From the NCBI RefSeq assembly GCF_025264665.1, contig NZ_CP073697.1, positions 4,135,501 through 4,199,500 on the forward strand: 64,000 nucleotides of DNA, given 5' to 3'. Below the pieces are notes generated by a model. It searched no databases, was not told where the DNA came from, and saw only the letters and a program-made list of their open reading frames with translations. This DNA comes from Edaphobacter flagellatus (GTDB lineage Bacteria; Acidobacteriota; Terriglobia; Terriglobales; Acidobacteriaceae). The translations under genes were made by a program, and so were the position numbers. The stretch's first letter is position 1; every line of letters begins with the position of its first letter. Shown piece by piece: positions 2,053-34,393 of the stretch.

Positions 2053-2120
2053 AAATTTTTTGAGGAGAAAGTGCTGTAGACTTCGGTTCATCCCGAATCT
2101 CGGTGTACAAGGATGAATCA

Positions 2121-4325: not shown

Positions 4326-4338
4326 TCAAGCTGGCGGT

Positions 4339-4483
4339 TGGTCGTTCCGCCCTTCGGGCTTCACTCCGGCCTTCGGCAGAGCGGTTGCCGCTTCGCGGCG
4401 ACTTGTTTTCGGCACGGCTGAAGCCGTGGCCCTTTTATTAAGGCAGAGAGAGCCAAGCCTGAAGGCTTGGCGTACCTATAGGT
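4339..4483. repeat. cluster of short hairpins with TGAA loops
   Basis: Successive small palindromes occur here: GTTGCCGC/GCGGCGAC at 4384-4402, CACGGC-TGAA-GCCGTG at 4413-4428 and GCCAAGCC-TGAA-GGCTTGGC at 4452-4471. The last two share the same TGAA loop. The remaining sequence to 4664 has no convincing gene; it includes CTTCGCTCGGAATGAC near 4620, which looks like common intergenic filler in this group. Function unknown (REP-like or transcription-stopping). Confidence 0.5.
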
Positions 4484-4664
4484 AATTCGAGTATTCGCTC
4501 GAATGGCCCACCCATGTCGCGATAAGGTCGCGCCATGAATGGGGCACCCGGCTGAACCAACTCTCGTGGGGAGGCAATACTCGCCGAGGACCCGATTTCG
4601 AAATGCGGGGGTTCCTCGGCTTCGCTCGGAATGACACCTTGTTGGACAGCGGGTGCTGCTGTGG

Positions 4665-6710
4665 TCACCAGATGCGGACTCGGTCGTTGGGGGCGAGGTA
4701 GAGTTTTTCGTTGGGTTTGACGTCGAAGGAGGTGTACCAGCCGTCGATGTTGCGGACGGTGGCGGCGCGGTACATGCCTGGCGCGTGCGGGTCGGTGAGG
4801 ATCTGTTGGCGGAGTGCGTTGTCGCGGATCTTGAGGCCCCAGTTCTGTCCGAAGGCGATGAAGAACTGCTGGTCGCCGTTGTAGGAGCCTGCGGCCGGTG
4901 GTGCCGAGCCTTTGAGGGATGTGTGGTAGGCGTCGTAGGCGGCGGCGAGTCCCGCTACGTCGGCGATGTTTTCGCCGAGGGTCTGGTGGCCGTTGACGGA
5001 GACATCGGGGAAGGGTTTGTAAGCGTCGTACTGGGCGGCGAGAGCTTCGGTCGCGGTTTTGAAGTGCGCGAAGTCTTCGGGGGTCCACCAGTTGCGGACG
5101 CGTCCCTGGGAGTCGAAGGCAGCTCCTTCGGAGTCGAAGGTGTGGGAGATCTCGTGGCCGATGACGGTGCCGATGGCTCCGTAGTTAGCGGCGGCGGGAG
5201 CCTTGGGATCGAAGAACGGCGGCTCGAGGATGGCGGCAGGGAAGTTGAGGGCGTTGTGGAGTGGCAGATTGACGGCGTTGACGGTCTGCGGTTCCATGGT
5301 CCACTCTTTGCGGTCGACGGGTTGACCGATGCGGGAGATCTCGTAGCGTGTTTCAAAGATATTGCTACGCCAGAGGTTGCCGAAGATGTCGTCGGGTTTG
5401 ACTTCGTAGCCTGCGTAGCTGCGCCAGTGGTCGGGGTAGCCGACGGAGACCTGGAGGGTGCCGAGTTTTTTGATGGCTTCGGCTTTGGTGGCGGGCGCCA
5501 TCCAAGAGAGGTTTTCGAGGCGCTGGTGGAAGGCTACGAGTAGATTGGCGACGAGTGCCTGGGCCTGGGCTTTAGCTTCGGGGCTGAAGTACTGCTTGGC
5601 GTAGAGCTGGCCGACGGCGTCGCCGAGGAGTCCGTTGACAAAGGTGATGCCGCGGATGTCGCGCGGGCGCTGCTGAGAGACGCCGGTGAGTGTGGTGCCG
5701 ACGAAGGCGAAGCGCTCGTCGGCGATGGCTTTGGGCAGGGTGGTGCCGTAGGCCTCGAGCATGTGGAAGGTGAGGAGGTCTTTCCATGCATCAATGGATT
5801 CAGACTGAACGAGCGCAGCTTCGGCGGTAAAGGCGGAGGGCTGCCAGACGATGAAGCTAGTCTGCTTGTCGAGCGAGGCGGCGCGGAAGAATTCGGGCCA
5901 GTCGAGGCCGGGGGCTTTGGCGGAGAAGTCGGCGACGGTCCAGACGTTATTGGCTTTGTGGATGTCTTCGGATTCAGCGAGGGAGACGTGCTTTTCGGCG
6001 ATGGCGTGCTCGAGGGCGAGGACGCGGGTGGCGCGGGCTTCGGGCTCGGAGAGTCCGGCGAGCGAGAACATCTTTGCGATGTGGGCCTGGTACTTCGCGC
6101 GGACTTCCTTCATGTGTGGGGTGTCGGCGAGGTAGTAGTCGCGGTTCGGGAGCTGGAGTCCGCCCTGGAGGAGATATGGGGCGTAGTGGTCGGGGTCGTT
6201 GAAGCCGGGTGCGACCCAGAGGCCGAAGATGTTTGCAGTATGGAAGTTGGTGTTGTTGAGCGCGTCGACGTCGGCGCGGAGAGAGAGGCCGAGGGCGTGG
6301 GCGAGCTGCTGCGGTGTCTTGATCGCAGCGATGGCGTCGAGGTGAGGCTTGATGGGAGCGAGTCCGTGGGCCTCGATGGTGGCCTCGTCCATGTAGGAGT
6401 GGTAGAGGTCGGCGATGCGGCGGGTGTCGGTGCCGGGTGCGGCGTTGGATTTGGCGGCCTGCTCGATGAGGGCGGCGACGCGCTTGTTGCTGCGGTCAGC
6501 GAGGATGTTGAAGGTACTGAGGGCGGCACGGTCGGCGGGGAGCTCGGTGTGCGCGATCCAATTGCCGTTGGCGAAGAGGTAGAAGTCGTCGCCGGGACGG
6601 ACGGCGGAGTCGATGCGGGAGAGATCGATGCCGCGAGAGGTGGTTTGTGCGGAGGCGGAGAGGGGAAGTGCGAGAGTGAGAGCGAGGAGGGTTTTAGTGG
6701 TGAGGTGCAT
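4665..6710 (-). CDS. M13-family (neprilysin-like) secreted metallopeptidase
   Basis: Zinc endopeptidase of the neprilysin/PepO family that cleaves oligopeptides. The HExxH motif is present as IGHEISHTFD, with the family ENIADVAG motif (third zinc ligand) downstream and the typical large N-terminal helical domain from about residue 35. ATG 6710 gives a clean signal peptide (MHLTTKTLLALTLALPLSASAQ) and has GGAG 7-10 bases upstream; an in-frame ATG at 6842 would add 44 non-signal residues and is rejected. About 681 residues, normal for the family. It ends IW, close to the usual conserved C terminus. It is encoded opposite the two upstream hydrolase genes and faces them across the repeat. Confidence 0.92.
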   Translation of the reverse strand: MHLTTKTLLALTLALPLSASAQTTSRGIDLSRIDSAVRPGDDFYLFANGNWIAHTELPADRAALSTFNILADRSNKRVAALIEQAAKSNAAPGTDTRRIADLYHSYMDEATIEAHGLAPIKPHLDAIAAIKTPQQLAHALGLSLRADVDALNNTNFHTANIFGLWVAPGFNDPDHYAPYLLQGGLQLPNRDYYLADTPHMKEVRAKYQAHIAKMFSLAGLSEPEARATRVLALEHAIAEKHVSLAESEDIHKANNVWTVADFSAKAPGLDWPEFFRAASLDKQTSFIVWQPSAFTAEAALVQSESIDAWKDLLTFHMLEAYGTTLPKAIADERFAFVGTTLTGVSQQRPRDIRGITFVNGLLGDAVGQLYAKQYFSPEAKAQAQALVANLLVAFHQRLENLSWMAPATKAEAIKKLGTLQVSVGYPDHWRSYAGYEVKPDDIFGNLWRSNIFETRYEISRIGQPVDRKEWTMEPQTVNAVNLPLHNALNFPAAILEPPFFDPKAPAAANYGAIGTVIGHEISHTFDSEGAAFDSQGRVRNWWTPEDFAHFKTATEALAAQYDAYKPFPDVSVNGHQTLGENIADVAGLAAAYDAYHTSLKGSAPPAAGSYNGDQQFFIAFGQNWGLKIRDNALRQQILTDPHAPGMYRAATVRNIDGWYTSFDVKPNEKLYLAPNDRVRIW

Positions 6711-6856
6711 GCGTGCTCCGATGAAGATTGTGCGATGCGCTGGCAGTGATGATGCGCACAATCCATGAGAGTACATGAAATGAAGGGTTAGAGGGGAGGA
6801 GTTGGGACGATTGAGCGCCGAGGTGTGACCGATCGCGCGCAATTTGAGTTATGAAG

Positions 6857-7918
6857 CTATGCAGGTTTTACCTTTTGCCACATTTGCCATACCTGACGTG
6901 CCAGTTCATCATCGTGCTTATTGCCGCTCATCAAAGCCCAGTCGGCAAAGGTGCGGACGGCCCACGTGTAGTTCACGCCTTTTGGCGTTCCATCACGGTT
7001 CTTTTCTTCACCGCCGCTGCGCGTATTGCCTGCAGACGATATGGTGCCGTCCGGTTGGACACGGCTGGATAGCCAACGCACTCCGTTCTCGAGATGCGGT
7101 TTCATCTCTGACTGGAGCTCGGGAGTTGCTACGAGCCGGTAATAGCGCAGGGCATAGCTAAGGCCAACTGCCTGGTAGTTGCTGTCGAAGCCGTCCTTTT
7201 CGGGGTTGACTCCATTGGGCAACTGGAGAGCGAGACCCTCGCGGATATATTCTTCGGACTTTTGTTGAAGCTGTCTGTCTTTCAGGACGACGGATGCTTC
7301 ACCCAGTGCCGCGCCTACGAGAAACCGGCGATGCGTGAAGGGGCGATTGCGGGCCTTACCTGCGGCTTCTATGTCGGGGCGCGTCATCCACTGTGCGGTG
7401 AGGGCAAGCTTCTTTTGGATTGCGTTCAGACGTGGAGCGAACGGCTCTCCCATGGGATCTGTGCGGAGAAGGATGAGGCTATGCGCGGCGGCTTCAAGAA
7501 AAAATGAAGTGCTGTGGAAGGCATCCTGGCAGGAGAAGGAGCCATCGGGGTTTTGCTGGCGGAATCCCCACTCAAGCACTCGGATTCCGCGGTCGACCAC
7601 AGTGGTGTCGTGGAAGGCGAGACCGATGGCGATGATATCGAATGCATCCCGTTGCTGCTCGATGAACCAGCTTCCGGTGTGGTTTTTATCCCACTCGATA
7701 TTCACGCTGGAGTGCGCGCCGTTGGCTGCGGTGTCTCGTTCGCCCCAGGAACGATTGGCGTGGATGGTCTCGCGCAGGGTGCCCGTTGTTTCAAAGAACA
7801 GGTCTTTCTGTTCCCGATTTGAAGAGAGTTGAGCGAACGCAGGTGAAAGGAGTGACGCGAGAAGAACAAGGCCGATACATGGATGGCAAAGGATGAATTT
7901 TAGCCGCAAGAAAACCAC
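6857..7918 (-). CDS. secreted alpha/alpha-toroid-like protein, function unknown
   Basis: A 353-residue protein starting at GTG 7918 (no ATG is available before the signal peptide). Residues 1-29 form a signal sequence ending SPAFA. The rest is helical with repeated W/G/D patterns such as WGFRQQNPDGSF and RWLSSRVQPDGTI, which resemble the helix-turn repeats of toroidal glycosidase or lyase folds. I do not recognise a catalytic signature. It lies 117 bases downstream of the M24 peptidase gene on the same strand. Could be a polysaccharide-active enzyme, but that is inference from fold-like repeats only. Confidence 0.7.
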   Translation of the reverse strand: MVFLRLKFILCHPCIGLVLLASLLSPAFAQLSSNREQKDLFFETTGTLRETIHANRSWGERDTAANGAHSSVNIEWDKNHTGSWFIEQQRDAFDIIAIGLAFHDTTVVDRGIRVLEWGFRQQNPDGSFSCQDAFHSTSFFLEAAAHSLILLRTDPMGEPFAPRLNAIQKKLALTAQWMTRPDIEAAGKARNRPFTHRRFLVGAALGEASVVLKDRQLQQKSEEYIREGLALQLPNGVNPEKDGFDSNYQAVGLSYALRYYRLVATPELQSEMKPHLENGVRWLSSRVQPDGTISSAGNTRSGGEEKNRDGTPKGVNYTWAVRTFADWALMSGNKHDDELARQVWQMWQKVKPA

Positions 7919-8035
7919 CGATCGATTGCGATATGTGTCTGCACCATAACGAACACAGGCCTGCGCGCAATGTTGCGGCTGCGGTACGTTACCGGTTTAT
8001 GAAAAATGTGTTCGGTTAGCAGGATGAAAGGGTGG

Positions 8036-9343
8036 TCAGGATTTGGCGAAGGGGTCTTCGAGCGAGTGGCTTTGCGGAGTGAACATGTCGCCTCCGTCGG
8101 GGGTGACGACCCAGTCGTCTTCGAGGCGGATGCCGAACTCGCCAGGGATGTAGATGCCGGGCTCGTCGGAGAAGGTCATGCCGGATTCGAGGAGAGTGTT
8201 GTTGCCACGGACGAGATAGGGCCACTCGTGGCCGTCCATGCCGATGCCGTGACCGAGGCGGTGGGTGAAGTGCTTGTAGTCGGGGCCGTAGCCGGCGTCG
8301 GTGATGACTTTGCGTGCGGCGTCGTCGACGGCATGGCAGGGGGCTCCTGCGCGGCCTGCGGCGAGTGCGGCGGACTGGGCGCGATGGACGATATCGAAGA
8401 CTTGCTTCTGCTTGTCGGTGGCTTTGCCGAGGACGAAGGAGCGTGTGATATCGGACTGATAGCCTTCGACGGTGCAGCCGTCGTCGAGCATGATGATCTG
8501 GCTTTCTTTAATGACCTGTGGCTGGAGCGAGCCGTGAGGGAGAGCGGAGTATTCGCCGACCTGGCAGGAGGCTTCGCCGGGGAAGCTGGTGCGGGCGTAG
8601 GCGGCAGAGATGAGCTCGGAGACCTGGCGGTTGGTCATGCCGGGTTCGATGGACTTGAAGGTGGCCTCGTAGACCTTGAGCGTGTTGTCGTTGGCGAGAC
8701 GCATGAGGGCGAGCTCGGCTGCGGATTTGACGGCGCGGCAGCCTGCGGTGATGGTGGTTCCGCTGACGGCGGTGATGGTGGGACTGGCGTGGGCGATGCC
8801 GTCGGAGAAGGCGAACTGCGTGCGTTCTTCCACACCGACGCGGCCGGTGGAGATACCAGCGTCTTTGAGTGCGCGGGCTAGCAAAGCGTAGGGATTCTCG
8901 TCTTCGTTCCAGGTGTAGATCTTTGTCGTGGAGGCTTGCGGAAGTGTGGCTGGTCGGGCGTCGATGCGCTCGCGAACACGGCCTTCTTCGAAGACGGGGC
9001 AGACGATGAAGGGGTTCCCTTTGGCGGGGAGGACCCAGGCGAAGAAGCGTTCGGACTGGCCCCAGCGGAGGCCGGTGAAGTAGTTGAGCGAGGTGCCGGT
9101 GCAGATGACGAGCGCGTCGATTTTATTTTTGGTGAGAAGCTGGCGGGCGCGTTCGATGCGCTGTTCGCGTTCTTCGAGCGTGATGGGGATGGCTTCTTTG
9201 CGTCTGCTGGCGAGGGCAGCGATGGCGGGAGGAAGTTTGATATCGGAGGGAGGTGTGGCGGTGGGGCGTTGTGCCTGAAGTTCGATGGACGGGGCTACAG
9301 CTGCTGCGGAGGCGGCGAGTAGGAAACTTCTTCTAGAGGGCAT
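8036..9343 (-). CDS. M24-family Xaa-Pro aminopeptidase-like enzyme with Tat signal
   Basis: Metallopeptidase of the pita-bread fold (Xaa-Pro aminopeptidase/prolidase group). The N terminus MPSRRSFLLAASAAA has the twin-arginine consensus SRRSFL, so export as a folded protein is likely. A creatinase-type N-terminal domain is followed by the catalytic domain: metal-ligand regions appear as MLDDGC...SDITRS, HRLGHGIGMDGHE and SDEPGIY, ending with GIRLEDDWVV. About 435 residues. It is divergent from the next gene (9424), with an 80-base shared upstream region. Dipeptidase versus aminopeptidase activity cannot be separated here. Confidence 0.9.
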   Translation of the reverse strand: MPSRRSFLLAASAAAVAPSIELQAQRPTATPPSDIKLPPAIAALASRRKEAIPITLEEREQRIERARQLLTKNKIDALVICTGTSLNYFTGLRWGQSERFFAWVLPAKGNPFIVCPVFEEGRVRERIDARPATLPQASTTKIYTWNEDENPYALLARALKDAGISTGRVGVEERTQFAFSDGIAHASPTITAVSGTTITAGCRAVKSAAELALMRLANDNTLKVYEATFKSIEPGMTNRQVSELISAAYARTSFPGEASCQVGEYSALPHGSLQPQVIKESQIIMLDDGCTVEGYQSDITRSFVLGKATDKQKQVFDIVHRAQSAALAAGRAGAPCHAVDDAARKVITDAGYGPDYKHFTHRLGHGIGMDGHEWPYLVRGNNTLLESGMTFSDEPGIYIPGEFGIRLEDDWVVTPDGGDMFTPQSHSLEDPFAKS

Positions 9344-9423
9344 GAGGGGATTGTAATGAATCGCCGCGGGATGCGCGGATGGTGTTTCAACTTGTTTTCG
9401 GAGGGCTGCGATAGGCTACGTAC

Positions 9424-10518
9424 ATGGTGAGATGGCTTGTTGCGGTAATGATTGCCGGCTTAGTGGCGACGACCGGGCTTCGTGCGCAGGAAGAGGTGCT
9501 GCGGCCGAAGGTGGTTGTAGTGAGCTACTTTGAGGTGGGAGCAGACACGGGGGATCGTCCGGGAGAAGCGCAGTTCTGGATCGAACGTGATCATCTGGAT
9601 CGAGTGATTGAAGTGCCGGGAATGACGCACGTGGTGCGAGCGAACGCGGATGGATCGGAGATTGCCGTGGTTGTGGGGCCGGGACAGATTCGGCCAGCAG
9701 TAAATTTGATGGCGCTTGGTTTCGACAACCGATTCGATCTGAGAAAAAGCTATTGGCTGATCAATGGAATCGCAGGAGTTTCGCCGGAGGATGGCTCGCT
9801 CGGCATGGCTTTCTGGACAGACTATGTGGTGAATGGAGATTTGCTGCACTTTATTGATCCGCGCGAGATGCCGAAGGAATGGGAAGACGGGTACTATGCG
9901 ATCGACAAGAGCAGGCCGGAGGAGCAGCCGCGCGTGGATGCGGGGTCCGCAGAGGATGTGAGGACGTGGTCGAAGGATGCGGCGCAGATCAACTGGCGCG
10001 GCACGGTGGTGCAGATGAATCCACAGTTGCTGGATTGGGCCTATGGCCTGACGCGAGAGATGAAGCTACCGCAGACAGAGCCGATGCGGGCATTGGGTGC
10101 GCGCTATAAGGGGTTTCCGAAGGCGCAGGCGGTGCCTGGAGTAAGTGTTGGCGCGAACATTGCAACGGAGACCTTCTGGCATGGCGCGAAGATGGATGCG
10201 TGGGCTCACCGGTGGGTGAGCTATGCGACGGATGGGCGTGCGCGTATGGGAACGACATCGATGAATGACTCGGGCGCCATGGTCGCGTTGTATTCGCTGA
10301 CGAAGGCGGGCCGCGCGAATTGGAACCGCGCTCTGCTGTTGAGGACAGCGAGTAACTTTGACAGGCAGCCGGATGGCATGACGGCGGAGCAGAGCGCGAA
10401 CGGCGAAAAGCATGCCGCGTTTACAGGGTATGCGATGTCGTTGGAGGCCGCATATCGCGTGGGCAGTAAAGTCACGAAGGCAATTCTGGCTGGAAATGAA
10501 CCTGCGTTGAATCCATAG
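9424..10518 (+). CDS. purine nucleoside permease (NUP)-family protein
   Basis: Matches the NUP family, first described as a fungal nucleoside permease: the start of the mature part reads KVVVVSYFEVGADTGDRPG, followed by motifs such as GPGQIRPAVNLMALG and WLINGIAGVSPEDGS. It has a signal peptide (residues 1-21, ending LRAQ) and no clear multi-pass membrane region. The protein is therefore more likely a secreted or periplasmic nucleoside-binding or phosphorylase-like enzyme than a true permease. 364 residues. The family name is reasonably sure; the biochemical role is not. Confidence 0.75.
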   Translation: MVRWLVAVMIAGLVATTGLRAQEEVLRPKVVVVSYFEVGADTGDRPGEAQFWIERDHLDRVIEVPGMTHVVRANADGSEIAVVVGPGQIRPAVNLMALGFDNRFDLRKSYWLINGIAGVSPEDGSLGMAFWTDYVVNGDLLHFIDPREMPKEWEDGYYAIDKSRPEEQPRVDAGSAEDVRTWSKDAAQINWRGTVVQMNPQLLDWAYGLTREMKLPQTEPMRALGARYKGFPKAQAVPGVSVGANIATETFWHGAKMDAWAHRWVSYATDGRARMGTTSMNDSGAMVALYSLTKAGRANWNRALLLRTASNFDRQPDGMTAEQSANGEKHAAFTGYAMSLEAAYRVGSKVTKAILAGNEPALNP

Positions 10519-10617
10519 GAGATGCGCGGTTATCGCCGGAGTGGTGAGAATCGCCTATGTTCTGATAGGTTCAAGGTCTGGATTGGCTTTAGAAAGAATT
10601 TCAGGCGGATACGACCC

Positions 10618-11634
10618 ATGGCAATGATTACGACCGTTCAGCAGCATATTCTGCAGCAGCAACAGGCGCTTTTGAAGTCGACCGGACGCGAGGCGACGGG
10701 AACGTTCAGTTGGCTGCTGAGCGGTATTACGCTTGCGACGAAGATGATTGAGGCAAAGATTCGTTCGGCTGCGCTAAGCGATGTGCTGGGTGCTGCCGGC
10801 GCGGAGAATGTGCAGGGAGAGCAGCAGCAGAAGCTGGACGTATATGCCAATCAGGCTATGCTGCACTGTCTCGGTCTGCGCGATAGTGTTGCGGCCCTGG
10901 TGAGCGAAGAAGATGAGCAGCCGGTGACGTTCAACCGCGATGCGGAGACAGGGAAGTACATCCTTGTTTTTGATCCGCTGGATGGGTCCAGCAATATTGA
11001 CGTGAATGTGAATGTAGGGACGATTTTCAGTGTGTTGCGGCGATTGCCCGCTGAGCTGGGAACACTGGAGGAGTCGATTCTGCAACCGGGGTTCAGGCAG
11101 GTTGCCGCGGGATACGTCGTATACGGACCTTCGACGGTCTTGGTTTATACGACGGGCAATGGCGTGCACGGATTCACGCTTGATCCTACGATTGGCGCGT
11201 TTGTACTGAGCAACGAGCGGATGATGATGCCGGAGCAGGGAAGCTACTATTCGGTGAACGAGGCGAATGCTGCGGGATGGCCGGAGGAGTACCGGCGCTA
11301 TGTCACGATGTTGCGTGAAGGTGGTTTGGGGAAGACGTATAGCTCGCGCTATATCGGTAGTCTGGTGGCGGACTTTCATCGAACGCTTTTGAAGGGTGGC
11401 GTGTTTTTGTATCCTCCGACGGAGAAGCAGGCGAAGGGCAAGTTGAGACTGCTGTATGAGGCGAATCCGTTGGCATTTATCGCTGAGCAGGCAGGAGGCG
11501 CGGCGACGAATGGCGCGGGGAGAATTCTGGAGATCAAGCCAGAAGGAATACATCAGCGCACGCCCTTCTGTGTAGGCAGCAAGCGCGAGATGGAAGCTTT
11601 GACGGGGATGTTGACAGGGGCATTGGCAAATTGA
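10618..11634 (+). CDS. fbp: fructose-1,6-bisphosphatase class I
   Basis: Hydrolyses fructose-1,6-bisphosphate to fructose-6-phosphate in gluconeogenesis. The metal-binding signature FDPLDGSSNIDVNVNVGTIF is intact, preceded by the SEEDEQP segment, and YSSRYIGSLVADFHR and LRLLYEANPLAFIAEQAGG follow as in class I enzymes. ATG 10618 (MAMITTVQQHILQQQQ) is preferred to the far-upstream in-frame ATG 10522, which would add a 32-residue Arg-rich stretch; AGGCGGA lies about 10 bases before 10618. 338 residues, a typical length. Its stop codon overlaps the start of the following small ORF. Confidence 0.95.
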   Translation: MAMITTVQQHILQQQQALLKSTGREATGTFSWLLSGITLATKMIEAKIRSAALSDVLGAAGAENVQGEQQQKLDVYANQAMLHCLGLRDSVAALVSEEDEQPVTFNRDAETGKYILVFDPLDGSSNIDVNVNVGTIFSVLRRLPAELGTLEESILQPGFRQVAAGYVVYGPSTVLVYTTGNGVHGFTLDPTIGAFVLSNERMMMPEQGSYYSVNEANAAGWPEEYRRYVTMLREGGLGKTYSSRYIGSLVADFHRTLLKGGVFLYPPTEKQAKGKLRLLYEANPLAFIAEQAGGAATNGAGRILEIKPEGIHQRTPFCVGSKREMEALTGMLTGALAN

Positions 11635-11894
11635 GCTTTTCAGCGGTAGTTGTCGACATACTGGAAGAGAGCCGTGTCGCTGGACTTCAGCGATGGCAGA
11701 TTCTGTTGGACCATACGGAGTTTGGTGTTGGCGATACGGGCGAGCTTGAGGCTGTGGCGAAGAGTGGTGCCCGGTTGGTGATTCCTGTACTTGAGGTCGT
11801 GCGCGATGGGAGCCAGATGTGGCATCTGGTAGAGAAGCCGATTACCGTGGGTACGGTGATCCGTGCAGAGGTCTCAGGCGCGGGAGAAGAATAG
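11631..11894 (+). CDS. small hypothetical protein coupled to fbp
   Basis: An 87-residue frame beginning with TTG at 11631, which overlaps the fbp stop by four bases (TTGA). This is a common arrangement for translational coupling. The composition is protein-like (VVVDILEESRVAGLQRWQIL and a C-terminal beta-rich part), with no known motif. No better start is available. The non-ATG start and small size leave real doubt, but the overlap and amino-acid composition favour a true gene. Confidence 0.5.
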   Translation: MSFSAVVVDILEESRVAGLQRWQILLDHTEFGVGDTGELEAVAKSGARLVIPVLEVVRDGSQMWHLVEKPITVGTVIRAEVSGAGEE

Positions 11895-11905
11895 GCAGCA
11901 GAGGT

Positions 11906-11934
11906 TTGAGGCGAAACAGTCTTCCTGATACACT
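11906..11934 (+). promoter_or_regulatory. candidate sigma-70 promoter of tRNA-Ala
   Basis: TTGAGG (11906-11911) and TACACT (11929-11934) with a 17-base spacer lie about 60 bases before the tRNA. Positions and spacing fit a housekeeping promoter. Confidence 0.5.
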
Positions 11935-11993
11935 CGCTAGAGTGATTTCGATGCGATGTGCCGGGGTGGCGGTCGCGAGTTCGAAGCATGTTT

Positions 11994-12069
11994 GGGGCTG
12001 TAGCTCAGTTGGGAGAGCGCCTCGTTCGCAACGAGGAGGTCAGCGGTTCGATCCCGCTCAGCTCCACCA
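11994..12069 (+). tRNA. tRNA-Ala (anticodon CGC)
   Basis: A complete cloverleaf. The acceptor stem GGGGCTG pairs with CAGCTCC (one G-U), the D arm contains GCTCAGTTGGGAGAGC, the anticodon stem is CCTCG/CGAGG with loop TTCGCAA (anticodon CGC at 12027-12029), and the T arm is AGCGG-TTCGATC-CCGCT. The 3' ACCA is encoded. It reads alanine codon GCG. Confidence 0.97.
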
Positions 12070-12303
12070 AAGAATTCATCTCTTACAGTAAAATCCGAGG
12101 TCAATTTAGAGGCCAGAAAGTGATTGGGTCCAATCACGGTCGGTTTCTCCCTGCACCTACATCTCGCGGCTTGGCCTTCGCTCGTCGGCTGCGCTCGACT
12201 GGCGACTATGGTGTTTATCGGGCGACTCGAATGCAACCATTGACGATGCGCTGACTTTCTCATGATTCATCAAATGAGATCAATGATCGGCATCAACTTA
12301 CAC

Positions 12304-13542
12304 TCATCGAGCCAAATCGGCATCGTTAAGTCCGGTTCGCCGCGTCAGAACATATATCGCAACCAGGGCAGCGGCAAACCCCGATGACGCGCCTACCCCC
12401 AGTGCCCACCGGGGACCGAAACGGTTTGCCACCCACCCCACGATCGGAGCTCCTATCGGCGTACCTCCTAGCGCGACGGCGAGCCGAAGGGCCATGACCC
12501 GGCCTCGCATGGCAGGCTCCGTCGTGAGCTGCATCATGCTGTTGGTTGCGTTGGTGAGTGTCAGGGCCGCAACACCAATGACCATCAGAGCCGCGGCGAA
12601 CCACCAGTAACCGGGGGCCAGCGCAGCGAGAGTGCATCCAATCCCGAAGACTGTTGAGCCGACAAATAACGACCCGAACTTCGGCTTGTCGCGACCTGCG
12701 GCAAGCAGCGCTCCGGAGATGGTGCCAATCGCCATGATGGAGGATAGAAGTCCGAAGCCGCGCGCATCGGTATGGAAGACGTTGACAGCCATTGTCGAAG
12801 TAAAGATCGGGAAGTTAAGCCCGAAGGTCCCAATTAGAAACAGCATGACCAGGATGGCCCGGAGATCCTGGCGGCTCCAGACATAGCGGAATCCTTCCAG
12901 AAATCCTCCGGCGGTATGGCGAGCTCTCATGTTCGGATACAGTTCGGACACGCGGAACAGCGACATCGAAATCAAAACTGCAGCGAATGATATGCCGTTG
13001 ATCGCAAACGCCCAACCAGTTCCCACCTTCGCAATGACCAGACCAGCAATTGCGGGGCCGACCATACGGCCGGCATTGAATGATGTCGAATTGAGCGCGA
13101 CTGCATTATGCAGATGGTCGTCACCCACCAGCTCGGCCACGAACGTCTGGCGCACGGGAGCATCCAATGCAGCCGCCGAGCCAAACAACAATGCAAATAC
13201 GTAGACCTGCCAAAGACGGATGTTCCCCATGATCGTAAGGATTCCCAAAGCCAGCGCCAACACTCCCATCGTCGCTTGGGTCACCATCAGGAGCTTGCGT
13301 TGGTTGAGATGATCTGCAGCAAATCCGGTCCAGGGCAACAAAAGAAGCTGTGGTGCAAACTGCAGCGCCATGACGATTCCCATAGCGGAGGCATCATGAT
13401 GAGTGAGCTGCGTAAGGACGAGCCAGTCCTGAGCAACACGTTGCATCCATGTACCGATATTGGAAACCAGAGCACCCGCTGACCACACCCGAAAATTAAA
13501 GATGCTCAAAGCGCGGAAAGCACCCGCCACCGGATTCTTCAT
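12304..13542 (-). CDS. MFS transporter (multidrug/enterobactin-exporter type)
   Basis: A 412-residue, roughly twelve-helix major facilitator. The N terminus (FNFRVWSAGALVSNIGTWMQ) and the loop after the second helix (AADHLNQRKLL) are typical of the MFS_3/EntS-like exporters. Its ATG overlaps the stop of the upstream gene (ATGA at 13539-13542), so it is the last gene of the MarR-isochorismatase operon. MarR-controlled MFS pumps usually export small aromatic or toxic compounds; the substrate here is inferred only from context. Confidence 0.88.
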   Translation of the reverse strand: MKNPVAGAFRALSIFNFRVWSAGALVSNIGTWMQRVAQDWLVLTQLTHHDASAMGIVMALQFAPQLLLLPWTGFAADHLNQRKLLMVTQATMGVLALALGILTIMGNIRLWQVYVFALLFGSAAALDAPVRQTFVAELVGDDHLHNAVALNSTSFNAGRMVGPAIAGLVIAKVGTGWAFAINGISFAAVLISMSLFRVSELYPNMRARHTAGGFLEGFRYVWSRQDLRAILVMLFLIGTFGLNFPIFTSTMAVNVFHTDARGFGLLSSIMAIGTISGALLAAGRDKPKFGSLFVGSTVFGIGCTLAALAPGYWWFAAALMVIGVAALTLTNATNSMMQLTTEPAMRGRVMALRLAVALGGTPIGAPIVGWVANRFGPRWALGVGASSGFAAALVAIYVLTRRTGLNDADLAR

Positions 13543-27036: not shown

Positions 27037-27852
27037 ATGAATAAGCTGATCGTTTTAGGCTGCCTTCTAAGTGCGGCAATCGAGGTTCAGGCGCAAAATC
27101 GTCCTGTCCAGGCTGGTATTGCTATTCCAGGTAAGATCATGGCGATCTCCCACCGAGGCGAGCACCTTCATCATCCGGAGAACACGCTTCTCGCGTTCCA
27201 GGCGGCGATTGATGCCGGAGCAGATTTCTTTGAGGGAGACATTCGCACCACGTCGGATGGCAAGCTTGTCCTGATGCATGACAGCACGGTGAACCGCACG
27301 ACCAACGGTACCGGGACTGTCCAGGATATGACCTTCGGCCAGATCCGCTCTCTCGATGCTGGAGCGAGGTTTCCGGAGTTCAAAGGGACCAAGGTTCCAA
27401 CGTTTGATGAAGTGCTCGATCTGGCGCATGGCAAAATCAACATGTACGTCGACACGAAGAATGCAGATGCAAAGCAGCTGATCGATACGATCGTCCGCCA
27501 TGATATGCAGGATCATGTCGTGATCTATGGCAATCCGTTTTTTCTCTACGAAGTGCACAAGATTCGACCAGATCTGAAGATTATGCCGGAGGCCGGTTCT
27601 GCCGACGTCTGCAAGCTGCTTATTCGGGCCTTGCAGTTACAGGTCATCGCCTTCAGTGAGGACGATTTTAAAGAGGATGTGATTCAGTTGGCGAAGCAGG
27701 CAAACGCTCAGATTTATGTGGACCGACTGGGACGCCAGGACAATGTGGAGGCTTGGCAGAAAGCAATCGACATGGGTGCGACCGGAATTCAAACCGATCA
27801 TCCGGCCGAACTTGTGAACTATCTGAAGGAGCATCAGATGTCGTCACGGTAA
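27037..27852 (+). CDS. secreted glycerophosphodiester phosphodiesterase
   Basis: A 271-residue TIM-barrel enzyme releasing glycerol-3-phosphate from glycerophosphodiesters. The catalytic motifs are present: ISHRGEHLHHPENT (His and Glu), EGDIRTTSDGKLVLMHD (metal ligands and the second His) and the TVNRTTNGTG loop. A signal peptide (MNKLIVLGCLLSAAIEVQAQ) places it in the periplasm or outside. ATG 27037 has AAGGA about 10 bases upstream; the frame is open back into the receptor gene but those codons overlap it. Likely co-transcribed with the receptor. Confidence 0.93.
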   Translation: MNKLIVLGCLLSAAIEVQAQNRPVQAGIAIPGKIMAISHRGEHLHHPENTLLAFQAAIDAGADFFEGDIRTTSDGKLVLMHDSTVNRTTNGTGTVQDMTFGQIRSLDAGARFPEFKGTKVPTFDEVLDLAHGKINMYVDTKNADAKQLIDTIVRHDMQDHVVIYGNPFFLYEVHKIRPDLKIMPEAGSADVCKLLIRALQLQVIAFSEDDFKEDVIQLAKQANAQIYVDRLGRQDNVEAWQKAIDMGATGIQTDHPAELVNYLKEHQMSSR

Positions 27853-28022
27853 GGCTTCGTCCGTGATGCCGGTCGATGGTCTGCCTGCAATTCCAGCATT
27901 TGACCAAGACAATGTTGGGCTTGCCGAAATCTTGGTAGTGTCTCAGTTTGGATTCAAACAATCCCTAATGGTTGGCATATGGCATCGGTCATAACTCTCA
28001 AGTATGCGTATGTGACCGTGAA

Positions 28023-29375
28023 TTAGTGGGGTGTTGACTTCGATCCCCATAATGCGCGGCGAAAGGGTAAGCCAACGGAAAACTGCAGATTCGGTGTGTC
28101 TGGGGTTAGACCAACTCCGAAACTGAGATCGATGGTGCGGCCCGGTGCATACATATAGGAGGCCCCCAATCTCAGAGACCCCTCAACAAGATATGAGGCG
28201 GGGATGACCTGTCCGTTCAGTGTGGTCGAACGCGTAAACCTCTGATCCCACCCAATCGTCATAGAAGTTTCCGGATTAAGCGCAAGAATCGATCCGAGCT
28301 GAAAGCCGATGGCATCCCCTGGCTCAAAGTGGCCTGGGATCATTTGCCCTACATTCTGCGGATCGGGAATCTGATGTGTGCCGTTCAGATTGGCTGTGTA
28401 GGAAAGATTACCGAAAAAGACAACCGGGTCATTGGATTTTGCGGCTGTCAGATTGCCCTGGACGGCATAGAACCCTGTACCGAGAGCTGTCTGACTACTG
28501 TTGAGGTTGAAGCTGTCGATTCCAGTTGTAGTTTTGAACCGAACATTGGCGAGCAGGTCCGGTACGCGGCCGTGTTCGAAGGTCAGTTGACGAGAGAGGC
28601 CGAAGGTGATGTCCCCCATACCGAATGTGCCTTGTGATGTCTGTACATTATTCGTGTCGACTGTGCGGTTGAGTTCGTATCCATATGGGATGTAGGCTTC
28701 AAACTGAAGCTTGTGAGGCAAGCCAAGGCGAGCGGTGAAGGTGGGGAGCAGGAGATCTTTGCGCGTTCGCTGCGAAGTGATATCGCCAACTACCAGTACA
28801 GGCAAAAGCGCGAATCCGTTGATGCTGAGGTGGTCTGCGGAAGAGCTGAAGTAAGAGGTCGAGTGATCGATCTCGATCGTTCCTGGCGGCAACAGCAGGC
28901 CGCCGCGAACAATAAGTGCCTGGTCGAGCGCCTGACTCGCCTGACGTTCTTCAGCATCGTAACCTGCATTCGTAACGACAGCATTGATGGAGGAGGCAGT
29001 GCCTGAGTGTGCTGCGGTGGGCTTTAATGCAACATCCTTTGGAGCGGTCGTGAAGCCTCCATTGACTCTCCATTCAAGCTCCTGCACGCGTTCCAACAGA
29101 TTGCGAATGATCGCATCTCTTTCGCGCAAGGCATCCTGCAATCGTTGATTGATGGCAGCATTCATGGGATCCTGCAGCAGTGCCGGTACCTGCTGTGGGG
29201 AAGCTGTCTGTGCCGCATCGCGTGATTGTAGCTGCGTTTGTTGAGGAGCTCCTTCCTCCCCGAAGGCCCCGGCTGTCATCTGGAAAGCCGTAGCGAGCAG
29301 GGCCATGCGAAGTAAATAGATCGTCAAGTTTTTTGTCTGTCGTAAAGCTGTCGGTTCAAATCGCACATATCTCAT
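28023..29375 (-). CDS. FapF-like outer-membrane barrel with N-terminal coiled coil
   Basis: About 450 residues. After a signal/anchor region (residues about 17-38) comes a helical heptad segment at 71-104 (INQRLQDALRERDAIIRNLL, then ERVQELEWRV), a linker, and from about 155 a beta-barrel with alternating strands of the 'transporter'/MetA-pathway barrel type, ending in a mature barrel strand. FapF, the Pseudomonas amyloid secretion pore, has this order: trimeric coiled coil, linker, barrel. A TTG at 29399 overlapping the peptidase stop is an alternative start. Last gene of the four-gene cluster. The barrel call is firm; FapF identity is inferred from architecture plus neighbours. Confidence 0.75.
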   Translation of the reverse strand: MRYVRFEPTALRQTKNLTIYLLRMALLATAFQMTAGAFGEEGAPQQTQLQSRDAAQTASPQQVPALLQDPMNAAINQRLQDALRERDAIIRNLLERVQELEWRVNGGFTTAPKDVALKPTAAHSGTASSINAVVTNAGYDAEERQASQALDQALIVRGGLLLPPGTIEIDHSTSYFSSSADHLSINGFALLPVLVVGDITSQRTRKDLLLPTFTARLGLPHKLQFEAYIPYGYELNRTVDTNNVQTSQGTFGMGDITFGLSRQLTFEHGRVPDLLANVRFKTTTGIDSFNLNSSQTALGTGFYAVQGNLTAAKSNDPVVFFGNLSYTANLNGTHQIPDPQNVGQMIPGHFEPGDAIGFQLGSILALNPETSMTIGWDQRFTRSTTLNGQVIPASYLVEGSLRLGASYMYAPGRTIDLSFGVGLTPDTPNLQFSVGLPFRRALWGSKSTPH

Positions 29376-29395
29376 GGCGACACCCAAGGCTTGCG

Positions 29396-30100
29396 TCAAT
29401 AAAGAGGATTGGACGGAGCGGTAATATCGATTCTCCGTTGAATGATGGTTTCGTCCGGAACAAGACGGGAGGCCATTACAGACCGTTTCTCAGTGAGCAT
29501 CAGCTCCGTGGGCGGATGCACAATAAAGACGATGCCTTCTTTCCAAAGAGTCTGAAAGCGGTCGACCTTCATGGTGAGATTGCCGAATCCAGGGTCCGCA
29601 ACGATGACGCGACCACCGGTAATCTGGCGGACCACGATGAAGTGGTCGAATCCTTTCAAGCGAATGGGCACGATGACGGATGTCTTTTCGAGAGCCAGTT
29701 CCTCAATGGACATTCCTGTAAACCCCTCTGCGCTGTATCCGCGCGCCTGCGCGAATCGTTTAAGATCAAGCAATGAAAACCCCCCACGGGCGCGGACGCG
29801 CACCGGATCGACGCGGTGCAGTATCCATACCACGATGGCGCTTTCGGGGGTGTTGTCCTTAAAGTCGTAAGTAAGAAGCGTGCTCAGTGCGGCTGCTCCA
29901 CAACTCATATCCCACTTCTGCCGCACCACGCCTTCACCGCGAATTTCCTTCAAGCTCCGGATGCTCTTGCTTGCTCCCTGAACGCCTTCGTTCTCCCATG
30001 TCTGGCAAAAAGATGTTTCTGAAATAAGAGAGACGCTCGCCATCGCTAGCGCGAGCGTCCAAGGCCGTATCCAGAACCATTGAGAAGAGCAGTACATCAT
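29396..30100 (-). CDS. secreted C39-family cysteine peptidase (FapD-like)
   Basis: A 234-residue protein with an N-terminal signal segment (residues about 11-32) and a stand-alone peptidase C39 domain. Oxyanion Gln Q61 and nucleophile C67 are seen in RQKWDMSCGAAAL, the catalytic His H153 in GFDHFIVV and the acidic residue D169 in ADPGFGN. C39 enzymes cut after leader peptides of the L-x-x-E/D-L-x-x-V-x-G-G/A kind. Two neighbouring secreted proteins carry such a sequence. No ABC transporter is fused, unlike bacteriocin exporters, which is the FapD arrangement. The gap to the upstream small gene is 4 bases. Confidence 0.82.
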   Translation of the reverse strand: MMYCSSQWFWIRPWTLALAMASVSLISETSFCQTWENEGVQGASKSIRSLKEIRGEGVVRQKWDMSCGAAALSTLLTYDFKDNTPESAIVVWILHRVDPVRVRARGGFSLLDLKRFAQARGYSAEGFTGMSIEELALEKTSVIVPIRLKGFDHFIVVRQITGGRVIVADPGFGNLTMKVDRFQTLWKEGIVFIVHPPTELMLTEKRSVMASRLVPDETIIQRRIDITAPSNPLY

Positions 30101-30104
30101 CCAC

Positions 30105-30500
30105 TCATTTCAGGTTTGTCTGCGTCAGCGTCCCCACAGACGAGTTGATGTTGACGTTCAGGTTCAACAGAACATTGATCTTCGAGTTCACGGCATTGAT
30201 ATTTACCAGAGAACTCAGATTCTGCTGCGCATTGCCATTGATGCTGAGAGTTCCCGTTGTGCTTGACAGCGGAGAACTATCCAAGGCAAGCGATCCTGAA
30301 CTCGATACCAAGCCATTGGGTGTCGGCGTCTGCCCCTGAAATTTGATGACGCCATCGGAGACGCTGGCCGTAACCGTACCGGCCGTCACGCGATCGAGTG
30401 CCGCATCGTTGAGGGGCTTGGCGTGTCTCTGAACCCTGGCTTGGCAAAGGCCGGCAGAAGTCCATAGCATCATGGTCGCTATTACAAGAATTCGTCGCAT
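30105..30500 (-). CDS. small secreted repeat protein, candidate amyloid nucleator
   Basis: 131 residues: a signal peptide (1-20), the leader-like motif LNDAALDRVTAG at 30-41, then an Asn/Ser/Gly-rich body. The C-terminal part (SINGNAQQNLSSLVNIN at 86-102, then NLNVNINSSVGTLTQTN) has the alternating N-V-N pattern also found in the larger subunit next door. It contains no cysteines after the signal region. GGAG upstream supports ATG 30500 over 30530. Its position and composition fit a minor amyloid subunit (FapA/FapB role); the role is inferred. Confidence 0.72.
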   Translation of the reverse strand: MRRILVIATMMLWTSAGLCQARVQRHAKPLNDAALDRVTAGTVTASVSDGVIKFQGQTPTPNGLVSSSGSLALDSSPLSSTTGTLSINGNAQQNLSSLVNINAVNSKINVLLNLNVNINSSVGTLTQTNLK

Positions 30501-30570
30501 AGACCACTCCTTGTGGAGAAGTATGCGCAACGCCGCAATTACTATTCATTGCAGCGCTGCGCAACTCTGT

Positions 30571-31941
30571 TTAGCGGGCCTGGCTGATGCTGTTGGACTG
30601 CGTCAGGCTTGGTGTCGAGTTCATGTTCGACGTCCGCGCCACGTTGACTCCGTTTGCAACCATGCCGCCGGCTGCGTTGACGATGTTCATCGCCGTCGCG
30701 TTCTGCATTGCCGATCCAGCCAGGGTTACGGAGTAGTTGTTGGTTGCTGTTACGTGCGATCCATCGACTGCGACATTCTGCGCGCTCGCTGAATCGAGAC
30801 TAACCGCTCCTTGCACGTCATACGTTTTGTGGTAGGCCTTGACGGAGTGCGAGGCATCCGCCTTAGCGTTCTTCGTCGACAGGCTGGAGGAATCGCTCTT
30901 CGCGGTCGTCTCCGTTTCGCTTGTCGCATGGGTAGAAGAATCGCTCTTTGCTGACATTGTTGCATTTGTGCTCGCGCTGCTATTCGACGACGCGCTCTGC
31001 GAAGCATCCTTCGTGCTCTTCGACGAGGCATCCTGCGCGGCATTGTTCGAGGCGGAAGCATCTGCATCGGTACTGGAATGACCGCTGGTGGAGTTGCTTG
31101 CCGATCCAATGCCGGAGGTGGTTAGAGCATTGGTCTGGTTGCCCGCTGTCGACGATGTCGCTCCGCCGCCAGCACCACTATTGGTGTGGGTTGAGCTGCC
31201 GCCGGATGAGGAACTGCCGCCGCTTCCACTGGAAGCGGTAGCACTCGTTGCGTTGGAAGAAGAAGTATCGTTCGAGGAAGACGTCTTGCTTGCACTATTT
31301 GAGGCCGACGCTGTTGTGTCGGTCGAAGAGGACTTGCTGGCACTTTCCATTGAGCTGGCATTCTTCGTGGAGCTTGCGCTATTTGAAGAAGTGCTGTTGC
31401 TCGTTCTATTGTCAGTCTCGGTCTCTGTATGGTTCCACGATTTGGTCGAGGATGAGTCGAGACTTGAGGAACTGCTGCTGCTCGTGGTGACATCCGATGA
31501 ACTCGTTACATCCAGTTGTGAGTTCGTGCCACGTTTATAGCCAGTAAGTGTGGCCTGACGCGCGCTTGACTGGTCGATATCGTTGCTCTGATCGACATCG
31601 GCGCTGCCTGAGTTGGCAACTGTCGTTAGACTGCCGTTGTAGACGTTGACTCCGTTAGCTACCAGGGCATCTGTTGAGTTCACAATATTGATGCCTTTGG
31701 CTCCATTAAGTACGCTGCCGGAGATATTGACTGCTCCAGTGTTAGATTCTGTGACCGTGGAGTTATTCGCAGCAAGTGCTGAGCTTTCCTCGCCTGCCGC
31801 AGTAACACGATCCATTTGGTTGTCACGCAATTCCCGCGTCTTGGTTTGCTTCTTGTCGTGGGAAGCGTTCGATGCGCTCTGACCATATGCTGAGCCAGAG
31901 ACGACTAAGGCTGCAACTAGAGTAATAACAAGTTTCTTCAT
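30571..31941 (-). CDS. serine-rich secreted protein with two amyloid-like repeats (FapC-like)
   Basis: 456 residues. The signal peptide covers 1-20 and the leader-like motif LRDNQMDRVTAAG is at 38-50. Repeat 1 (about 57-128) contains GINIVNSTDALVANGVNV and ends QSNDIDQSSAR; repeat 2 (about 391-456) contains MNIVNAAGGMVANGVNV and ends QSNSISQAR. Between them lies a linker of about 260 residues, over 40 percent Ser with Thr, Asn, Ala and Asp. Conserved hydrophobic/Asn repeats separated by a variable low-complexity linker is the FapC design. GGAGG lies before ATG 31941; longer in-frame starts are not supported. Probably the main fibril subunit and first gene of the operon. Confidence 0.75.
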   Translation of the reverse strand: MKKLVITLVAALVVSGSAYGQSASNASHDKKQTKTRELRDNQMDRVTAAGEESSALAANNSTVTESNTGAVNISGSVLNGAKGINIVNSTDALVANGVNVYNGSLTTVANSGSADVDQSNDIDQSSARQATLTGYKRGTNSQLDVTSSSDVTTSSSSSSSLDSSSTKSWNHTETETDNRTSNSTSSNSASSTKNASSMESASKSSSTDTTASASNSASKTSSSNDTSSSNATSATASSGSGGSSSSGGSSTHTNSGAGGGATSSTAGNQTNALTTSGIGSASNSTSGHSSTDADASASNNAAQDASSKSTKDASQSASSNSSASTNATMSAKSDSSTHATSETETTAKSDSSSLSTKNAKADASHSVKAYHKTYDVQGAVSLDSASAQNVAVDGSHVTATNNYSVTLAGSAMQNATAMNIVNAAGGMVANGVNVARTSNMNSTPSLTQSNSISQAR

Positions 31942-32404
31942 ATTCGCCTCCAAGGCGTTTGTTGATAAAACTCCGCCGCTTACGCAGCTGTCGCTGCATA
32001 TTGGGCAATTCGATGACAGTCCGTGCCCACAGGCGCGGGAAACAGACTGCATCAACCTGTTCGGGTAGGCTTCAGAGCGAAAGAAGAGAGAGAAAAACGC
32101 AAAATGAGTGCGAGGCAAAAAGAATTGTGTTCACTCGCCGCAGGGAATCAAGGTCGTATTCGGAGCCCATCCGAAGATTTCGCTGATGTCATTTCCACAT
32201 CGCATTCAGCCCAATGCCTAAGTGGATAAGGCCCGTACAACACGCGTAGCTAAGAGCAACTGGGGTGCCAAACTCTGTCTCTTTCGAATCTGTTACATCC
32301 ACGTGCTTGGATTTTTCCATTGCAGTATTTTGCAGAAATAATGGAAATCTTAGGGCAAACGATGTCAATTTGAAGGCCTGCCAATCACACAACTGAAGTG
32401 ATTG
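31942..32404. other. intergenic region upstream of the amyloid-like operon
   Basis: It lies between two minus-strand genes and should hold the operon promoter, but I cannot assign -35/-10 boxes with confidence. A nested inverted-repeat structure is present at 32012-32061: GATGACAGTC with GACTGCATC, inner CGTGCC with GGCGCG, and an overlapping AACAG/CTGTT stem. A short frame at about 32189-32320 on the minus strand (43 residues from MEKSKHVD) has no ribosome-binding site and is not called. Confidence 0.45.
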
Positions 32405-34393
32405 CTAGCTGAACAGGAACTCCTTGGTGCGTAGCTCTTTGACTGTATCGCGCAGCCTGGCAGCCTTTTCGAACTCAAATTTCTTGGCGGCTTCGCGCAT
32501 CTCGATTTCAAGTTTGGCGATGTATGTGTCGAGCTCCTGTTGTGTGGTGAAGTCCGGCATGTCGCTGGTTTCTTCAGTAAGATCGGCATAGTCGGCTTTG
32601 AGAATACCTGCCAATGCCATCTCGGTGGGACGGCTGATCGATTGTGGCGTAATGCCGTTCTCCTCGTTATATGCCTGTTGAATCTCGCGACGACGATTCG
32701 TCTCGTCGATAGCGCGTTGCATCGATTCGGTCATTGTGTCGGCATAGAGAATCGCTCGGCCTTCAAGATGTCGTGCCGCTCGACCGATTGTCTGGATGAG
32801 CGATCCCTGGGAACGCAGGAAACCCTCTTTATCAGCATCGAGGATAGCGACGAGTGAGACCTCAGGCAGATCGAGCCCTTCACGAAGCAGGTTGATGCCG
32901 ATAAGTACATCGTACTCACCTTTACGTAGATCGCGGAGAAGCTTGATTCGTTCGAGGGTTTCGATTTCAGAGTGCATGTAACGGCAGCGAACGCCAACCT
33001 CGGTGTAATAGCCTGCGAGATCTTCTGCCATGCGCTTTGTCAGTGTTGTGACCAGCACGCGCTGATTTTTCGCAGATCGTTCACGGATTTCAGCGAGCAG
33101 ATCGTCGATCTGACCTTTAACAGGGCGGATCTCCACTTCGGGGTCGGTCAGGCCAGTCGGGCGGATGATCTGTTCGACAACCACTCCTGCCGACTTAGTC
33201 AATTCGTAAGGTCCTGGCGTTGCAGAAACGTACACGATCTGTCCGGTGCGCGACTCGAACTCCTCGAAGCGCAATGGCCGGTTGTCGAGTGCTGAGGGCA
33301 GACGGAATCCGTAGTCAATAAGATTCTGCTTGCGCGAACGGTCGCCGTGCCACATGCCATGCAGCTGTGGAACGGTAACATGCGACTCATCAATAAATAT
33401 GAGGAAGTCACGAGGGAAGTAATCGAGCAATGTCGGCGGGGGCTCGCCCGGCAGTCGGCCAGAAAAGTGCCGGGAGTAGTTTTCGATGCCGTGGCAGTAG
33501 CCCACCGATTTGATCATCTCCAGATCAAATCGTGTGCGTTGATGGATACGCTGCGACTCGACGAGTCTGCCTTCTTTTTCTAGCTGAGCCTCCCAGTCGA
33601 AGAGTTCCGCCAGGATGGAATCCATGGCCGAAGTCTTACGCTCCGGCTGCACGACATAGTGTGACTTTGGATAGATGGGCAGACGCGAGTAGCGCTGTTT
33701 GACAGTGCCGAAGAGCGGGTCGATCTGTGAAAGCGAGTCTATTTCATCGCCAAAGAGTTCGATGCGATAAGCTGATTCGTCGTAGGTTGGATAAACCTCA
33801 ATGATGTCTCCACGAACGCGGAAGGTTCCGCGACGGAAGTCGACATCGTTGCGATCGTACAGAATTTCAACCAGCCGGCGTGTGATGTCTTCGCGCTTGA
33901 TGCGCTGGCCTTTTTCCAGCAGAAGCAGCATGCCGTAGTAGGCTTCCGGCGACCCGAGGCCGTAGATGCAAGAGACCGAGGAGACAATGATGCAGTCCCG
34001 CCGCTCAAAGAGCGAGCGTGTTGCCGAAAGCCGCAGCTTGTCGAGCTCTTCATTGATGGTGGCTTCCTTCTCAATGTAGAGATCTCCGGAGGGTATATAG
34101 GCCTCGGGCTGGTAGTAGTCGTAGTACGAGACGAAGTATTCGACTGCGTTATTCGGGAAGAACTGCTTGAACTCATGGTAAAGCTGCGCGGCCAGCGTTT
34201 TGTTGTGTGCGAGCACCAACGCCGGGCGGTTGACCTCGGAGATGATCTTCGCCATGGTGAAGGTCTTGCCTGATCCGGTTACGCCGAGCAGAACCTGGTC
34301 TTTTTCGCCGGCGTTAAGTCCGGCGACGAGTTCGGTAATGGCGCGCGGTTGATCGCCCTGTGGCTTGTAGGCTGTTGTTAATTGAAAGTCCAT
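32405..34393 (-). CDS. uvrB: excinuclease ABC subunit B
   Basis: A 662-residue DNA-repair helicase that verifies damage handed over by UvrA and recruits UvrC. The Walker A is [10 protein letters not shown], the beta-hairpin region contains [12 protein letters not shown], the later helicase motifs include [20 protein letters not shown] and QTIGRAARH, and a C-terminal UvrC-binding (UVR) helix pair spans the last 40 residues (LRDTVKELR). ATG 34393 ([16 protein letters not shown]) matches the family start; the frame is open far upstream but that part is not UvrB-like. Divergent from the histidine phosphatase gene with a 39-base gap. Confidence 0.97.

Follow-up and report, generated by a model that had tools for sequence, protein, structure and literature searches.

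Which proteins does a free-standing, secreted C39 peptidase act upon when it is encoded beside an outer-membrane barrel? The question is raised by four consecutive minus-strand genes within a 64,000-nucleotide stretch (hereafter the window; positions 4135501–4199500) of the Edaphobacter flagellatus genome, which consists of one contig of 4,445,627 bases. A preliminary description of the window, made from the letters alone, had read these genes as a locus for Fap-like functional amyloid. The genes, which were confirmed at the places given there (Table 1), encode two secreted subunits, A and B, a periplasmic C39 peptidase of the FapD/FilB class and a FapF-like barrel, and the gaps A/B, B/C39 and C39/barrel calculated from the coordinates are 70, 4 and 20 bases (70, 4 and about 20 in the description). 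As argued in the following, they probably form an export operon for fibres of the Fap/Fil kind, in which A and B would be cut by the C39 enzyme at a second leader and would leave the cell via the barrel.

One leader on two unrelated subunits

Directly behind the Sec signal, A has LRDNQMDRVTAAG and B has LNDAALDRVTAG, the two subunits being otherwise unrelated. This occurrence of the same short segment in both proteins is new and absent from the preliminary description. In alignments of eight A and eight B proteins, D, V, T and A of the segment are invariant and the preceding spacer is variable, with two further B proteins showing I in place of V. Comparison of the A and B family profiles aligned 18 columns covering only the leader (E 9.2e-5, probability 59 %). 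Described as [LM]-x-D-x-x-[LM]-[DS]-x-[VI]-T-A-[AGS], the leader is found in 118 of the 120 listed rows among 798 B homologues, the window's B included, and stands at the very start of the remaining two, which have a short N-terminus. For A, at least 37 homologues were obtained at E 0.001, one of them named Desulfuromusa; the expression matches 26 of the 37 listed, and nine of the eleven missed have a looser form such as LSLDALDRITAG. Besides, many A-like proteins outside the genus (P0138–P0160, again with one named Desulfuromusa) share a GGAIVGN-type segment after the leader.

At the DNA level, the core pattern (D..[LM]D.[VI]TA[AG]) has a single match in the window's own genome, inside gene A at the leader, gene B being missed because of a CTC codon. 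The same pattern gave 16 matches in 31 genomes and the reversed pattern none. Nine of these 16 loci were read and provided ten motif places, seven of them at residues 28–39 in proteins resembling A or B and the other three near residue 150 in a different protein. The segment resembles the double-glycine leader of bacteriocins.

From this arrangement, a stepwise export can be proposed. By means of their Sec signal peptides, A and B would pass through the inner membrane, after which the periplasmic C39 enzyme would bind the second, double-glycine-type leader and cut at its small-residue end, thereby releasing or licensing the subunit. The FapF-like barrel, with coiled coil and plug helix on the periplasmic side, would then pass the unfolded subunit to the surface, where A (repeat-linker-repeat) might form the fibre and B might cap, nucleate or modify it; a role in attachment would be conceivable for such a structure.

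Alternatively, the shared segment could remain uncut and signal docking or targeting to the barrel, to a chaperone or to a C39 domain that acts without cleavage. According to the available sections of PMC6173800 and PMC5557850, to which all statements citing these papers refer, some C39 domains bind only; moreover, the TAG ends of the acidobacterial segments are non-canonical and cutting of A and B is a prediction. We nevertheless regard this alternative as unlikely, as the catalytic Gln, Cys, His and Asp are invariant and, at position 12 of the leader, 105 of the 118 B rows have G and the other 13 have A. In Pseudomonas, FapD acts in the periplasm and its active-site Cys is required, the C38A variant abolishing secretion, and the N-terminus of FapE is missing in mass spectrometry, with no peptides from it in the mapping (PMC5557850). 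These findings on FapD and FapE are the strongest outside support for leader cleavage.

Table 1. Positions of the operon genes and their parts in the window
Feature	Positions	Strand	Remark
Gene A, secreted subunit, 456 aa	30571..31941	-	Sec signal and leader, then two repeats around a Ser-rich linker
Gene B, small secreted subunit, 131 aa	30105..30500	-	N-V-N rich
Periplasmic C39 peptidase (FapD/FilB class), 234 aa	29396..30100	-	Q61, C67, H153, D169
FapF-like outer-membrane barrel, 450 aa	28023..29375	-	
Post-Sec leader of A, residues 38-50, LRDNQMDRVTAAG	31792..31830	-	predicted C39 cut after small residues
Post-Sec leader of B, residues 30-41, LNDAALDRVTAG	30378..30413	-	11.3 bits on leader profile
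Repeat 1 of A, about residues 55-126	31564..31779	-	profile comparison
Repeat 2 of A, about residues 384-456	30574..30792	-	profile comparison
Predicted coiled-coil helix of barrel, residues 70-104	29064..29168	-	low-confidence model; region conserved in genus alignment

A scan of positions 27500–32700 against Rfam at E 1 gave no match, and promoter and terminator patterns at the locus were not more frequent than in shuffled sequences.

Peptidase, barrel and subunits in relation to Fap and Fil

A FapF search matched in 11 of 247 Acidobacteriota genomes and an alignment-based C39 search in 15 of 396 (12 in the genus, which is represented by 22 genomes in the C39 search table, one more in the family and two in another family), the named relatives among the C39 matches being Edaphobacter. 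In all 13 genomes of family f1 with the C39 gene, the order A-B-C39-barrel is kept, a check which covered these four genes and which answers the earlier call for the same arrangement in other acidobacteria; such constancy makes the arrangement more than chance. In L126, the script assigned no signal peptide to A and placed it 624 bases from B. In the other acidobacterial family (L012/L022), C39 and barrel run in opposite directions and the flanking proteins are unrelated to A and B. One further genome, G036, has a partial barrel gene (L021 4788–5390) without C39, likely reflecting loss of the locus. Proteins reading like sigma-54 activators by eye adjoin several loci (L022 3436–4761; L106 6061–6993; L172 8896–9813); none was seen beside the window's operon by eye, without a dedicated search.

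The peptidase matches C39 of Pfam (6.3e-16) and, in NCBIfam, FilB (4.2e-34, 118.2 of 475 bits) and FapD (1e-27, 96.9 of 330 bits), both NCBIfam matches being below the curated cut-offs. It carries a signal peptide, predicted as throughout this study by a crude script, and Gln61, Cys67, His153 and Asp169 are invariant across 10 aligned C39 proteins, so that the earlier reading of a stand-alone secreted enzyme with C67, H153 and D169 stands, extended by Q61. The label FapD-like is supported at the level of a FapD/FilB-like class; the scores are nearer to FilB than to FapD, but a tree of 78 C39 domains places the enzyme in a separate clade. In this tree, Fil (support 100/100), Fap (95/97), a group of unnamed C39-barrel loci (70/97) and the acidobacterial operon (98/99) are each on one side of a branch; its rows are the author's selection, with only every third locus of L022–L101, and a long row, L127, meets the acidobacterial clade. 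As judged from these sequences, the window's C39 forms its own clade next to those of Fap, Fil and the unnamed loci, and the locus represents a lineage distinct from both systems instead of a transplant from Fap or Fil. No C39 relative was found in the viral contigs searched. L127 itself (4525–7365), from another acidobacterium, encodes a distant stand-alone C39 in a context different from the window; two genes before it lies that of a secreted protein whose signal is followed by a segment ending in RGQ.

For the barrel, Pfam gave Phenol_MetA_deg (9.8e-07) and NCBIfam ranked FapF (4.8e-28, positions 12–418 of 420) above FilC (2e-17), with a FapF score of 98.1 of 700 bits that is below the curated cut-off. 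Among PDB sequences, FapF was matched at 5.7e-21. The AlphaFold model (mean pLDDT 49) has a helix at residues 70–104, predicted as coiled coil, a helix at 142–156, predicted as plug, and then strands, and its top 18 Foldseek matches are all FapF (best E 4.3e-11). Due to the low confidence of the model, the fold match backs the sequence result and does not stand alone. Sequence and predicted fold both make the barrel a relative of FapF, and its model includes a putative coiled coil and a putative plug helix, in agreement with the coiled-coil plus barrel protein of the preliminary description. That it represents a COG4313-type uptake channel with the secreted proteins as unrelated neighbours might be considered in view of the common Pfam family and the COG4313 channel 4rl8 being the next fold match after the FapF entries. 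This is highly improbable, however, since the E value for FapF is about five orders of magnitude better than for that channel, the gene order is kept in 13 of 13 genomes, a C39 partner is encoded and the neighbours carry leaders.

As had been claimed, A consists of two repeats, aligning with each other in profile comparison at 98.5 % (E 3e-15), and a Ser-rich linker with 83 Ser in 241 residues. Its assignment as FapC-like and that of B as FapA/FapB-like, in contrast, could not be maintained. Pfam and NCBIfam gave no family at its cut-off for A or B. The search for Fap repeats in A, as suggested earlier, was negative: the strict GX4NX3GX6N repeat has no match in eight A proteins, and the repeats of A do not align with Fap repeats in profile comparison. 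In favour of the earlier assignment, the window's A contains the relaxed pattern [GA]x4Nx3[GA]x6N twice versus 0.17 expected, and five of the eight A proteins exceed expectation. Scored with a profile built from 39 Fap repeats, the A proteins of L013 and L014 reach p values of 0.010 and 0.015 at positions in the linker, outside the repeats. Two results on A itself count against a fibre of the Fap/Fil kind, namely that on the Fap-repeat profile the window's A performs no better than shuffles (p 0.61), and that its AlphaFold model (pLDDT 30) has no confident residues.

How closely, then, does the operon follow the Fap system (fapABCDEF, Pseudomonas)? Both have a C39 enzyme with signal peptide, a barrel of the FapF type for which coiled coil and plug are predicted, and a secreted repeat subunit, and a post-Sec leader of this kind is borne by the FapE-position protein of Fap operons. 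A Fap system proper, with A being FapC and B being FapB or FapA, could draw on this barrel, the FapD match at 1e-27 and the repeat-linker architecture with its excess of the relaxed pattern. It is very unlikely, though, because the repeats of A neither fit nor align to the Fap repeat profile, neither subunit is FapB or FapC by repeat and family tests, and C39 is outside the Fap clade. Further differences are that FapE and FapA were not seen beside the four genes (no model for either was run), and that both subunits of the window carry the leader while the Fap fibre protein seems to be without it. 

The Fil locus (FilA-FilB-FilC, a putative pilus named in Acinetobacter) offers another template, with A or B as FilA, C39 as FilB and the barrel as FilC. 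The order subunit, C39, barrel is the same, C39 scores best on FilB, FilA-type proteins have a TGQ-ending leader right behind the signal peptide, and of the leaders found elsewhere that of FilA, LDDATLSDVTGQ, comes nearest to those of A and B. Yet, the barrel is closer to FapF than to FilC, C39 is outside the Fil clade, and neither FilA nor DUF6160 was matched by A or B in Pfam and NCBIfam at E 1; searching the genome for FilA likewise gave nothing, with controls that were equally silent. Moreover, in most of the listed Fil loci the barrel is followed by one or two additional secreted proteins, and no long open reading frame that reads as such follows on this strand of the window. A Fil-type pilus locus therefore appears distinctly unlikely, and we retain the separate fibre export operon with leader-bearing subunits as the probable reading.

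The leader beside other stand-alone C39 peptidases

The unnamed C39-barrel loci (L022–L101; mostly Proteobacteria, one other acidobacterial family) come from 226 genome loci that encode a C39 relative, the best 80 of which were used. L058 and L067 (without a C39 reading frame), loci without signal-peptide neighbour and near-identical rows were dropped. Like in the window, C39 is flanked by secreted proteins, most of which bear, after the Sec signal, a leader of the double-glycine type such as ISNEELDSQRGGF or, in the acidobacterium L022, VSAEQLEDQAGG, whereas the cargo bodies show no detectable kinship to A and B and the C39 clade is separate. A barrel was found in 68 of the 80 loci, in several of them on the other strand. 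A strict GG expression missed all 10 family-f1 leaders and had matches in 12 of the 154 controls as well as in 19 of 77 C39 N-termini; a looser one matched eight of the 10 leaders and 25 of 154 controls. As the expressions separated leaders from controls poorly, a profile built from these neighbours of the peptidases was used. At 7 bits or more, it recovers 81 of 95 non-redundant C39 neighbours (leave-one-out, not clade-held-out), three of 154 control signal-peptide reading frames and 0.8 % of shuffled regions, two of the three control matches (L033 and L043) being barrels. In a fresh set of 20 gammaproteobacterial loci found with the FapD model, in which some downstream proteins may be kin of training proteins, the same threshold is reached by the protein downstream of the peptidase in 18 of 18 cases, the upstream one in 5 of 19, the barrel in 3 of 18 and the control in 0 of 15.

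Within Fap operons, where position and repeats, without a FapE model, served to name FapE and FapC, the leader is located on the FapE-position protein, reading LSDDELAGMRGRF in L106 and VSDKALDTLRGRY in L107. Six further operons have LKDxExAxLRG[RK]YV in this protein (6/6, two from the second script only). Weaker matches are present in the FapA-position proteins of L106 (11.3 bits) and L107 (10.1 bits), and one FapC-like protein (L244) has 8.5 bits at a weak match. L106 (Aidingimonas halophila, 1779–13342) shows an unnamed C39-barrel locus beside a Fap operon, each with leader-bearing proteins of its own. Of 16 Fil loci, 10 encode a protein whose signal is followed by [LM]x[DE]xx[LM]xx[VIAT]TGQ, an expression composed after viewing examples; the four of these proteins that were scanned all match DUF6160 and, below cut-off, the FilA model. 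L249, whose genome belongs to the same order as a Halomonas, shares the four-gene layout of the window, with two leader-bearing secreted proteins, then C39, then barrel (4526–7861, reverse complement), and has identities to the window of 41 % for C39 and 32 % for the barrel. The best match of its cargo to A or B is 14 residues over the leader (E 0.12, non-significant alone).

The common post-Sec leader in C39 neighbours suggests that this peptidase family removes a second leader in the periplasm. We therefore lean, with reservation, towards a general two-step route, in which export by Sec would be followed by a free periplasmic C39 reading a second, double-glycine-type leader and then by a barrel of the FapF/FilC class. 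Such a route would unite Fap (through FapE), Fil (through FilA), the unnamed proteobacterial group and the acidobacterial operon, all with unrelated cargo bodies, and the leader would be a portable tag of about 14 residues whose gain recruits cargo. Compared to bacteriocin ABC exporters (PCAT), which share the C39 family, the window's enzyme is a separate secreted protein that would act after Sec export, and no ABC transporter was seen beside it.

Several observations count against the proposed export of A and B by leader cleavage. The acidobacterial leader ends in TAG or TAAG instead of GG, and the leader profile, trained on Proteobacteria, reaches 7 bits in only 3 of 10 non-redundant family-f1 rows (the window's A, for which the script chose an upstream start, is outside the scored rows), the A protein of L017 scoring –0.7 bits. 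Accordingly, the TAG type has to be considered a variant and not simply the same motif. In the Fap operons L157–L168, the protein directly upstream of the peptidase reaches 7 bits in 0 of 12 cases, so that fibre proteins in Fap operons seem to be without the leader. A leader-like motif also occurs in barrels (3 of 18 fresh and 8 of 68 older loci), and the FapF linker is named as possibly processed in PMC5557850. Barrels with such a motif may, to go by their sequences, be a second kind of C39 target. In L033, L036, L037, L043 and L045, the barrel motif is at about residues 74–131 and the gene after C39 scores below zero.

Possible targets of FapD and further fibre systems

If the C39 family removes a post-Sec leader, FapE would be the target of FapD. 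In the available sections, PMC6173800 and PMC5557850 both call the FapD substrate yet to be determined, the peptide mapping of the latter pointing to FapE and possibly the FapF linker, while those of PMC10638192 have FapD modifying FapC. In later literature, within a scope that did not extend to subscription papers and preprints, an answer on the FapD substrate was not recognised in the parts available. The doubt raised in the preliminary description as to how well such loci are described outside Proteobacteria is partly settled, as neighbouring fapD and fapF homologues in five additional phyla are already in print, according to the accessible part of PMC6173800.

FapD is needed for amyloid secretion in Pseudomonas, and with its substrate left open in the sections of PMC5557850 and PMC6173800 at hand, the leader comparison suggests targets. 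It also predicts cut sites, located right after RGR/RGK in FapE, at the TGQ end in FilA and after TAG or TAAG in A and B. If this holds true, Fap and Fil would be branches of one route with cargo recognisable by a short tag, and fibre proteins so far unknown could be found beside such peptidases in further phyla.

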